This document shows positions 23,260 to 30,695 of a DNA stretch of 64,000 bases, piece after piece. This stretch comes from Exiguobacterium sp. Helios. Lineage in GTDB: Bacteria > Bacillota > Bacilli > Exiguobacteriales > Exiguobacteriaceae. The position numbers were made by a program, and so were the translations under genes. Numbering within the stretch: the stretch's first letter is position 1; each line of letters starts with the position of its first letter. The DNA is taken from NCBI RefSeq assembly GCF_014524545.1, contig NZ_CP053557.1, positions 2,939,501-3,003,500 of the forward strand, written 5' to 3'. The notes under the pieces were generated by a model, which was not told where the DNA came from, did no database searches, and saw nothing but the letters and a program-made list of their open reading frames with translations.

Positions 23260-23370
23260 ATGATTGAAGGATCACGAAAGAAACGTCTTGTTTTCTGTTC
23301 AAAAGCATACAGAAATAGACCTTTTCCCGAACATATTTTTTCAGAAAATGGTTTCAAGCACATTTTTTCG

Positions 23371-23510
23371 TTCTTCTCCCATCCGGACTTTACCGTCGGC
23401 CCTGGAATCACACCAAGTCAGCCACAATGCGTACATTGTGGGTCGCGGGCTCGTCGATTCGAAAATCATCGCATTACCGCCGGTTGGGATTTTCACCCTA
23501 CCCCGAAGAA
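23371..23510 (-). ncRNA. FMN riboswitch (RFN element)
   Basis: Reading the minus strand, the conserved blocks GGGGTAGGGTGAAAATCCC, ACCGGCGGTAAT, GAGCCCGCGA, TGATTCCAGGGCCGACGGT and AGTCCGGATGGGAGAAG occur in order. It lies upstream of ribD and represses the rib operon when FMN is abundant. The 462-bp gap 23211-23672 is filled by this element, its terminator, a promoter (TTGTAT-17-TAGTCT at 23535-23563) and the terminator of the neighbouring operon. Confidence 0.95.
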
Positions 23511-23534
23511 CTGGTTATTCAGTTGTACAGGTCA

Positions 23535-27460: not shown

Positions 27461-27496
27461 AAAAAAGGTCTCTTCTTAAGAAACAAGAAGAGACCT
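27461..27496 (-). terminator. Attenuator terminator of the metN SAM riboswitch
   Basis: Minus strand AGGTCTCTTCTT...AAGAAGAGACCT hairpin followed by TTTTTT, 24 nt upstream of the metN start. Confidence 0.9.
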
Positions 27497-27497
27497 G

Positions 27498-27626
27498 GAT
27501 CCGCACAATGGCAGAATCCACTCGACTCATCTCTCAGACAATTGTCTGATGGAATTGGCACAGTGCTCATAATGAGTCTGTTGCCGAGGTTTCGTAGGGC
27601 CAGTCCCTCCACCTCTCTGGATAAGT
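27498..27626 (-). ncRNA. SAM-I riboswitch (S-box) of metNIQ
   Basis: On the minus strand the S-box blocks appear in order: CTTATCCAGAGAGGTGGAGG, GACTGGCCCTACGAAACC, TCGGCAAC, GTGCCAATTCC and GATGAG, with the attenuator directly after. High SAM should stop expression of methionine uptake. The 605-bp gap 27438-28042 holds this switch, its promoter, and the divergent leader of the esterase gene. Confidence 0.95.
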
Positions 27627-27690
27627 GTTGCGGTATGAAATTCGTATGTGTGTTGTTGCCGGTTGAACTTATGTCGTAAAACTAATTTTT

Positions 27691-27814: not shown

Positions 27815-27844
27815 TTGACAATTCATTTCCGCCAATGCTATCAT
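27815..27844 (+). promoter_or_regulatory. Promoter of the SAM-I-like leader and esterase
   Basis: TTGACA (27815-27820), 18-bp spacer, TATCAT (27839-27844), about 35 bp before the structured leader. Confidence 0.7.
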
Positions 27845-27877
27845 CTTCTCAATGATTAATCCGACAATTCCTATACG

Positions 27878-27978
27878 ATATATCAAGAGTGGACGAGAGA
27901 CCTGGCTCTAGGACTCCACGGCAACCTGCTGTTATGCAAGGTGCTCCGACCAGCAAAGCGGTTGCTTTGGATGATACA
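27878..27978 (+). ncRNA. SAM-I-like riboswitch (variant S-box) upstream of esterase
   Basis: Recognisable S-box blocks: TATCAAGAG, GACCTGGCTCTA, CACGGCAACC, GCAAGGTGCTCCGACCAGC and the 3' P1 strand GATGATA. It differs from the neighbouring metN switch (GGCTCTAGGACTCCACGG in place of GGCCCTACGAAACCTCGG) and lacks the AGGTGGAGGGA segment in its usual form. P4 would be AAAGC-GGTT-GCTTT. Ligand identity as SAM is inferred from family resemblance. Confidence 0.75.
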
Positions 27979-28020
27979 CACGAGAAACTCGTTTGCGTCC
28001 AAAGCCAAACGGGTTTTTAT
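27964..28020 (+). terminator. Terminator competing with the SAM-I-like aptamer
   Basis: GCTTTGGA (27964-27971) pairs with TCCAAAGC (27998-28005), with an inner ACGAG/CTCGT stem; GGGTTTTTATTTTT follows after 5 nt. The left arm includes the P4 3' strand and sits beside P1, so aptamer and terminator are mutually exclusive. Confidence 0.65.
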
Positions 28021-28042
28021 TTTTGAAATGGAGGACGAGATG

Positions 28043-28801
28043 ATGAGTATGGTTTATCCTGTTATACCGGGTGCGGAAGCCTTTTCCTTAGGACGCGGAT
28101 CCGTCGGCATTTTGCTCTGTCATGGTTTTAACGCAACGCCGCAAAGCGTTCGGGCTGTAGGAGAACAGTTCGCAGAACAAGGTTTCTCCGTCTATGCCCC
28201 TCGCCTGCACGGTCATGGGACCGATGTCCTGGAATTCGAAGCGACGACGGCAGATGACTGGAAACAGAGCTTGCGTGACGGCTTCGAACAGTTAGCCAGA
28301 CGGTGCGAATCGATCTTCATCGTCGGACAATCGATGGGGGCGACACTTGCCCTGTCACTTGCCGCTGAAGGTCTCCCGATTGCAGGAATCATCACGATCA
28401 ATGCCGCCTTGTCCGTCCCTGCTTACGAAGCCTTATCCTTCACCGATTGTCCGGTCTATCTGCCGGAAAGCACCCCTGATATCAAGCAGACCGCTTTTGA
28501 AATCATCTATGATCTTGTCCCCGCAGTTTGTGCTTCAGAACTGTTACGACTCATTGATGACACGCGACTACACTTAGCGACGATTCAAATTCCGACACTT
28601 ATTTTATATTCTGCTGAGGATCACGTCGTCCCGCCGGCCTGTTCCGATTATTTGTACCGGACGATTGGGGCAACAGATAAACGCAGTTATTGTCTGCTCG
28701 ACTCGTACCATGTCGCGACGCTTGACCATGATCAAAAGACGATTGTCCGTGAGACCTTACAATTCATCGAACAGTTCAGCCGGTTGACACGAACTGGTTG
28801 A
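28043..28801 (+). CDS. Alpha/beta-hydrolase, Est30-like carboxylesterase
   Basis: A 252-aa cytoplasmic esterase. The HGFNAT oxyanion motif is near residue 27, the nucleophile elbow is GQSMGA, the acid is the Asp of SAEDHVVPP and the base is the His of SYHVATLDHD, as in the thermostable Est30/YvaK monoacylglycerol lipase group. The ATG at 28043 is 7 nt after GGAGGA; an ATG three bases earlier is equally in frame. Preceded by a SAM-I-like riboswitch with a terminator, which ties this otherwise generic enzyme to sulfur or methionine status. Confidence 0.87.
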   Translation: MSMVYPVIPGAEAFSLGRGSVGILLCHGFNATPQSVRAVGEQFAEQGFSVYAPRLHGHGTDVLEFEATTADDWKQSLRDGFEQLARRCESIFIVGQSMGATLALSLAAEGLPIAGIITINAALSVPAYEALSFTDCPVYLPESTPDIKQTAFEIIYDLVPAVCASELLRLIDDTRLHLATIQIPTLILYSAEDHVVPPACSDYLYRTIGATDKRSYCLLDSYHVATLDHDQKTIVRETLQFIEQFSRLTRTG

Positions 28802-30598: not shown

Positions 30599-30695
30599 GG
30601 TTGTTTTCTCTCCTTCCGCCCTGGTTCATTTGCTGAGCCAGAGTAAGTTACCTTCCTATACTAAACGATTTTTTCATGCCCCGCAATACCTATTT

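Follow-up and report, generated by a model that had tools for sequence, protein, structure and literature searches.

Members of the SAM-I (S-box) riboswitch family, RF00162, combine a four-way junction, kink-turn G-A pairs, a pseudoknot and a SAM pocket with a downstream terminator, and these are the features that the leader described here has in common with them. Two accounts of the type structure, as far as their available text extends, place A62 in contact with G23-C29 and name G11, C44 and G58 as the positions that recognise the methionine moiety of the ligand (PMC3764141), and describe an A85-U64-A24 triple, the location of A61 and A62 in the P2 minor groove, and a pocket made up of A6-C8, A46-C47 and G56-G58 (PMC9580860). 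The spermidine riboswitch is a variant of SAM-I with a changed J1/2 and P3 internal loop; in the accessible part of its description it is rare, is found in Bacillaceae and their relatives, and works by transcription termination (PMC10853860). S-boxes of Exiguobacterium have been described in a paper whose available text does not contain the word esterase (PMC5399880), and three SAM riboswitches of Bacillus methanolicus lie before genes of unknown function, according to the accessible portion of the report (PMC4342826). In the open literature searched, as far as its listings and available text extend, neither an S-box placed before an esterase nor the subtype described below has been reported.

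The window analysed here is the whole 64,000-nucleotide stretch of the Exiguobacterium sp. Helios genome, with positions counted from its first letter. One of its genes, encoding an esterase, is preceded by a leader that is with high probability a SAM-I OFF switch acting through transcription termination, in which a rewired tertiary lock would surround an unchanged pocket, and by which an esterase of an MGL-like subclade would be co-induced with the S-box regulon. As a riboswitch the leader is a variant within an established class, and for the esterase, membership of the SAM/methionine regulon is most likely. That the leader belongs to the family, that it is conserved and covaries, that its pocket is identical and that it has alternative folds are all results of computation.

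The esterase leader and its alternative folds

The esterase gene is divergent from metNIQ, each having its own S-box in the window, and the elements of the locus are the following:

27466-27496, reverse strand: terminator of the metNIQ S-box (terminator scan)
27524-27627, reverse strand: canonical S-box of metNIQ, the comparison element (RF00162, 91.8 bits)
27815-27844, forward strand: candidate sigma-70-type promoter (TTGACA, 18 nucleotides, TATCAT), matching the consensus at 11 of 12 positions, where sites as good occur at a mean of 1.4 per shuffle of the region
27877-27980, forward strand: SAM-I (S-box) aptamer, variant subtype (RF00162 match)
27877-27884/27973-27980, forward strand: P1, with only four contiguous pairs
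27885-27888, forward strand: J1/2 (covariance model and alignments)
27889-27893/27915-27919, forward strand: P2 (covariance model and alignments)
27897-27899/27906-27908, forward strand: P2b (covariance model and alignments)
27900-27905, forward strand: L2, with one extra base (alignment)
27920-27929/27936-27945, forward strand: P3 (covariance model and alignments)
27946-27953, forward strand: variant J3/4, with CCG for AAU at positions 61-63
27954-27959/27964-27969, forward strand: P4 (covariance model and alignments)
27970-27972, forward strand: J4/1 (GA) and U85, also part of the antiterminator
27964-28005, forward strand: predicted antiterminator, -18.6 kcal/mol (folding)
27985-28024, forward strand: predicted intrinsic terminator, arms 27985-27995/28006-28016 and a U-rich tail (folding)
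28030-28034, forward strand: GGAGG ribosome-binding site, read from the sequence
28040-28801, forward strand: MGL-like serine esterase frame, with an alternative start at 28043

The forward-strand match to RF00162 at 27877-27980 reaches 65.1 bits in cmscan, against a gathering score of 44.4, with an E value of 6.7e-13 over the whole window and of 7.4e-15 over a 701-base stretch. The covariance search with the SAM-riboswitch families thus upholds the original prediction of a SAM-I-like leader before an esterase, the gene at 28040-28801 lying downstream. Its divergence from the canonical metNIQ S-box was also correctly foreseen, as was a mutually exclusive terminator, in that a terminator and a competing antiterminator are both predicted downstream of the aptamer. 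RF00162 is the best match of the leader within clan CL00012, and was the match kept for that clan when a SAM-IV or SAM-I-IV variant was considered. Two other matches near the leader were set aside as falling below their cut-offs, namely PyrR (24.1 bits against 54) and snoZ118 (19.9 bits against 48).

Compared with SAM-I at large, the leader has a short P1 and an esterase as its target, and its antiterminator takes the P4 3' strand together with J4/1. The pseudoknot can form through four Watson-Crick pairs between CUGG (27902-27905) and CCAG (27950-27953), and A64 (27949), which stands in the place of U64, can pair with U85 (27972). Under plain folding the aptamer alone adopts a structure other than that of SAM-I (z -1.27), and the assignment as an aptamer therefore rests on the covariance model and on comparative evidence.

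The predicted terminator hairpin, at about 27985-28016, has an energy of -13.5 kcal/mol with its tail; it was passed over by a terminator scan of the region, its loop being of 10 nucleotides and the limit of the scan 8. In the predicted antiterminator, 27964-27971 (GCUUUGGA) pairs with 27998-28005 (UCCAAAGC), and an inner hairpin is formed by 27980-27984 and 27988-27992. The transcript without the 3' arm of the terminator, when folded unconstrained, forms P2, P3 and the antiterminator. Forced into one state or the other in the absence of ligand, the leader has energies of -42.7 (aptamer plus terminator) and -47.2 (antiterminator). The unconstrained minimum free energy fold of the whole leader (-46.8 and -49.4 in two folds) is neither of these states, and for that reason the thermodynamics of switching are offered as a model and not as a result.

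Elsewhere in the window, an FMN riboswitch (23367-23514, reverse strand) and an L31 leader (30610-30643, reverse strand) are both ordinary. A covariance-model search of the whole genome gave eleven S-box matches. From the Pfam matches of the downstream genes, S-boxes also lie before a luciferase-like monooxygenase, an amino-acid permease, msrA, a Na+/H+ antiporter-family protein and a RuBisCO-like protein, and further ones precede what we take to be three metN-like genes, one mtnK-like gene and one metK-like gene.

A subtype of SAM-I and its pocket

The esterase and msrA leaders of this genome have an unusual J3/4 and J4/1 in common. A covariance model (R1) was built from an alignment (A1) of 12 of the 19 esterase leaders of the genus, near-copies being left out, together with the genome's own msrA leader. 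Esterase leaders score 105-120 bits against R1, the rows used in building it matching by construction; msrA-type leaders score 82-92, and among the matches listed the S-boxes that follow within the order reach 68. In all 24 of the msrA-type loci fetched, which come from two genera of the family, msrA lies downstream. Outside the family, members of the subtype are found in many Bacillaceae genera. A pattern scan gave 85 stretches, and in the 80 loci used the next gene encodes a protein of about 108 amino acids (33), the esterase (17), msrA (8), metY (4), a 75-residue family (4) or metK (2), and is unassigned in 12, three of them cut off; the names metY and metK are ones that we presume for these partner genes.

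For the subtype alignment, 77 of 83 sources were taken, giving 75 distinct rows. Those left out were L156, whose leader is that of L151, the low-scoring L157 and L229 from Kineococcus, and L158, L190 and L209, which are cut off. The comparison set consisted of the 23 other S-boxes at hand, of which 22 are distinct and some are near-copies. Positions 22-30 form an A-U pair in 77 of 77 members, whereas position 22 is G in all 23 comparison S-boxes, from which A22-U30 (for G22-C30) is absent. The 64-85 pair is A-U in 58 of the 75 distinct rows, G-C in 3 (61 of 75 for the two together) and something other in 14; in the comparison set U64 is present in 22 of 22 readable sequences, A85 in 21 of 23 with C in the other two, and neither A64-U85 nor G-C in place of U64-A85 occurs. 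C18 and C37 are each found in 76 of the 77 members, A62 is replaced by C in 67, and L2 has one base added across the aligned members. Since these last features also occur in some ordinary S-boxes (C18 in 4 of 23; C37, C62 and a longer L2 each in 5 of 22), only the A22-U30 pair and the 64-85 swap are marks proper to the subtype.

The four kink-turn columns are G and A in every one of the 77 members. The pseudoknot pair U26-A67 (columns 28-99 of alignment A2) is UA in 65, GC in 8 and CG in 2 of the 75 distinct rows, and the covariation score of the pseudoknot was reached by none of 500 shuffles, the pairs and types measures being reached by 310 and 306 of the 500, respectively. Double changes are present in 15 structural pairs, a figure that 0 of 500 shuffles reach, while the count of pair types was reached by 60 of 500; all of these counts come from an alignment that had been fitted to the structure.

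The original prediction held that the leader differs from the metNIQ S-box at key core positions, which is accurate for conserved positions, the differences being located in L2, P2b, the kink-turn flank, J3/4 and J4/1, and inaccurate for the SAM pocket, where there are none. Neither the (A85-U64)-A24 triple nor the minor-groove contacts of A61 and A62 are found in the subtype, in which U64-A85 is replaced; these are details of the type structure, by which membership of RF00162 is not decided. Because the changed positions are those that carry the A62 contact and the A85-U64-A24 triple in the type structure, the tertiary lock formed by P2, J3/4 and J4/1 appears to be rewired. Forms intermediate between ordinary S-boxes and the subtype were found (L082 and L092), and their existence suggests that the subtype arose by degrees within SAM-I; the genes behind them are presumably metE-like.

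In the pocket, U7, G11, C44, A45, U57, G58 and U88 are invariant in 77 of 77 members, and A46 is present in 74. Three of these positions, A45, U7 and U88, are ones that we take to be direct contacts of SAM. With the pocket intact, metNIQ as a neighbour, and metK, metY and msrA among the partner genes, SAM is the likely ligand of the subtype.

Terminators at or below -8 kcal/mol follow the aptamer in 74 of the 77 members, with energies of -13.2 to -21.7 kcal/mol in nine leaders of the genus; the search for a terminator came up empty in three, L170, L187 and L199, the first of which is an esterase leader. The antiterminator duplex was counted in 72 of the 77, in a count made without a control. 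The J4/1 tetramer (positions 82-85) has an exact complement in the 5' arm or loop of the terminator in 25 of 74 members, as compared with 14.5 +/- 3.0 (maximum 24 in 2000) for permuted regions, a statistic inflated by related rows. Examples of this pairing are GGAU/GUCC in esterase leaders and GGUU/AACC in the msrA leader. Because the pairing includes a G-U, the leader type of the window and the genus esterase leaders shown count as misses in the exact-complement test.

The esterase and the spread of its leader

The esterase product, of 252 amino acids from the start at 28043, matches PF12146 (85.6 bits, cut-off 27), and none of the NCBIfam models compared with it reaches its cut-off. Its nearest solved structures are monoacylglycerol lipases (PDB 4lhe and 3rli), with 4lhe placed first by phmmer at E 3.2e-58; both are presumably of the Bacillus sp. 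H257 type. The earlier description of the enzyme as Est30-like holds at the level of the superfamily and is otherwise imprecise, since the Est30 carboxylesterase (PDB 1tqh) is much more distant, at E 2.9e-23, and was rejected as the nearest relative. Similarity to the bacterial monoacylglycerol lipase (E 3e-58) extends over the whole length and includes the Ser-Asp-His triad. With the triad numbering of the lipase assumed as the guide, the residues are Ser97, Asp193 and His223 (numbered from 28043), and none of the 19 leader-bearing or 29 comparison sequences departs from them. What sets the leader-bearing rows apart from the lipase group is GQSMG for GLSMG, with Gln for Leu before the nucleophile, then Glu142 and Pro145 (numbered as in the esterase itself), at which Ser is found in the lipase and small residues in the other group, and a few further positions. 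As leaderless members of the subclade have these residues too, they mark the subclade, which would be SAM-regulated in part, and not the regulation. The substrate of the esterase may be different from monoacylglycerol.

An orthologue of the esterase is found in 19 of 19 genomes of the genus, its own included, at 62-100% protein identity, and in all 19 an RF00162 match above the gathering score lies directly upstream on the strand of the gene. A second S-box, that of metNIQ in the case of the window, lies about 250 nucleotides off on the opposite strand in 18 of these genomes; the remaining one, G006 (L030), keeps the esterase leader with no other S-box in the 1.5 kb that flank the gene on each side. 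A survey of the class, covering 398 genomes, found an esterase (E <= 1e-35) in 91 of them, with 100 places in total; 91 of these places (19 + 72) were examined for the leader, nine weak ones being left out and L294 being cut at a contig end. The leader is present at 22 of the 91, 19 in the genus and three in one other genus (G088, G207 and G224), and is absent from 50 of the 53 examined loci of esterase homologues outside the genus and its sister genus.

The pattern scan adds eight esterase leaders, from Bacillus sp. EB01, Bacillus sp. PAMC26568, Bacillus sp. OV322, Bacillus sp. SJS, Metabacillus mangrovi, Metabacillus kandeliae, Metabacillus indicus and a Bacillota MAG. Since the Metabacillus indicus esterase is the same as that of G207, the further loci come to ten distinct ones, and all ten have leaders above the RF00162 cut-off and esterases of the same subclade. 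Five of the eight scan loci (L150, L204, L210, L214 and L222) have a canonical S-box nearby on the opposite strand. In Bacillus sp. OV322 the arrangement of the window presumably recurs, the esterase being divergent from a metN-like gene, and in Metabacillus indicus what we take to be a metNIQ-like operon is one gene away. Conservation of the leader-esterase pair, in 19 of 19 genus genomes and ten further loci, thus lends support to one of the alternatives originally put forward, that the esterase is part of the methionine/SAM regulon.

An esterase tree of 60 of the 84 rows places every one of the 19 leader-bearing rows in a single subclade of 28 (support 98/92) and none among the other 32. 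Two changes of state suffice to account for the leader on this tree, and a single clade of leader-bearing esterases is not rejected (AU p 0.119). In G088, G207 and G224 the subclade member carries the leader, and a further paralogue that lies outside the subclade does not.

In the sister genus the esterase is present in 19 of 19 genomes and the leader in 0 of 19. A conserved motif (about AATTAATTGTATCGGTTAA) takes the place of the S-box at L050-L060, between promoter-like sequence and the esterase gene. In the three genomes searched it has one match per genome, each at the esterase, and it is possibly an operator.

Alternative readings and the proposed switch

A score below that of the metNIQ S-box, a weak P1 and an aptamer that by itself is not the minimum free energy fold could be the signs of a decayed or inactive S-box before the esterase, a reading made scarcely credible by conservation and covariation across 77 members and by terminators in 74 of them. 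An ordinary SAM-I switch might instead have been captured from a nearby S-box gene, leaving the esterase as a passenger with no functional link, as its divergent position next to metNIQ and the leaderless esterases of the sister genus would allow. This is unlikely, given that the leader is of a variant subtype, unlike the metNIQ S-box, that it has been kept across the range of 62-100% protein identity, that G006 retains it without an adjoining S-box, and that in the three genomes with two paralogues it stands only before the subclade member.

The possibility of a changed ligand preference, also raised in the original prediction, fared less well. Subtype-wide changes at tertiary positions, unusual partner genes and the existence of a spermidine-sensing SAM-I variant (PMC10853860, accessible text) would be in keeping with a methionine derivative such as methionine sulfoxide, or another SAM-related metabolite, as the ligand. 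More novel still would be a separate ligand class that derives from SAM-I, responds to a metabolite related to methionine or to methylthio compounds, and governs a small regulon of its own (the esterase, msrA and the protein of about 108 amino acids). An altered ligand is very doubtful, and we give just as little credence to a separate class. No variation was seen among the 77 members at the pocket positions examined, and because the pocket is intact an altered ligand was rejected as the main reading. From the available text of PMC3764141 and PMC9580860, the changed positions belong to the A62 triple, the (A85-U64)-A24 triple and the pseudoknot and not to the pocket, which would situate them in the covarying tertiary lock. 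The changes that define the spermidine class affect parts of the pocket, J1/2 and the P3 internal loop, both of which are intact here, and that class was set aside for the esterase leader on a comparison with its published description, as far as accessible, and not with its consensus figure (PMC10853860). Moreover, C18, C37, C62 and a longer L2 each occur singly in other comparison S-boxes, and the subtype also precedes msrA and the metY- and metK-like genes, the last two of which fit SAM as partners.

Under the preferred reading, that of a SAM-I OFF switch, we infer that the leader binds SAM, that it switches in the cell and that the enzyme serves the salvage of methionine or methylthio compounds. 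With abundant SAM, the P4 3' strand and J4/1 would be kept within the aptamer (P1, P4 and the pseudoknot), the hairpin of the terminator would form, and the esterase gene would stay untranscribed. With little SAM, these two segments (GCUUUGGA) would pair with the terminator loop (UCCAAAGC), the inner hairpin would capture the 5' arm of the terminator, and RNA polymerase would read through into the esterase, which would be induced alongside metNIQ, msrA and the remaining S-box regulon. As an enzyme induced at low SAM together with methionine uptake, the esterase might act on an ester or thioester from which methionine or a methylthio compound is salvaged.

The subtype represents a natural test of a change in the SAM-I scaffold with the pocket untouched, and through it a riboswitch would tie an otherwise unplaced esterase to methionine metabolism. 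In Exiguobacterium and several Bacillaceae, the esterase subclade, msrA and the family of about 108 amino acids would join the SAM regulon, and such a placement makes their roles in methionine metabolism directly testable. The protein of about 108 amino acids is encoded by the commonest gene behind the subtype (33 of 80; L211:4079-4402, reverse strand, L216:6895-7224, forward strand, and 31 more). Three of these proteins compared with Pfam gave no match above cut-off, and three compared with NCBIfam gave none. An AlphaFold model (pLDDT 90.3), compared with the PDB, gave nothing at E <= 0.001 with Foldseek and a best Z of 5.5 with VIA-align, and as there is no convincing structural match, no function is read from the fold. 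Bacillus methanolicus has a subtype leader before a gene of this family (L228), an S-box that may already be among the three recorded in the accessible part of PMC4342826.

A distant homologue of the 108-residue protein is encoded at G000:C1:910377-910652 in the Helios genome, where none of the eleven S-boxes is near it, and a match is found in each of the 38 genomes of the family. At L083 and L085 (G138 and G264), the gene for the 108-residue protein has an in-frame stop and the leader is intact. Variant-like S-box sequences also occur in the actinobacterial genus Kineococcus (L157 and L229), at 53.7 and 55.4 bits against R1, before reading frames that we take to encode a luciferase-type monooxygenase and a substrate-binding protein. 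Finally, S-boxes stand in tandem at L178:4381-4659 (forward strand) and L206:4242-4512 (reverse strand), with the variant first in both cases.
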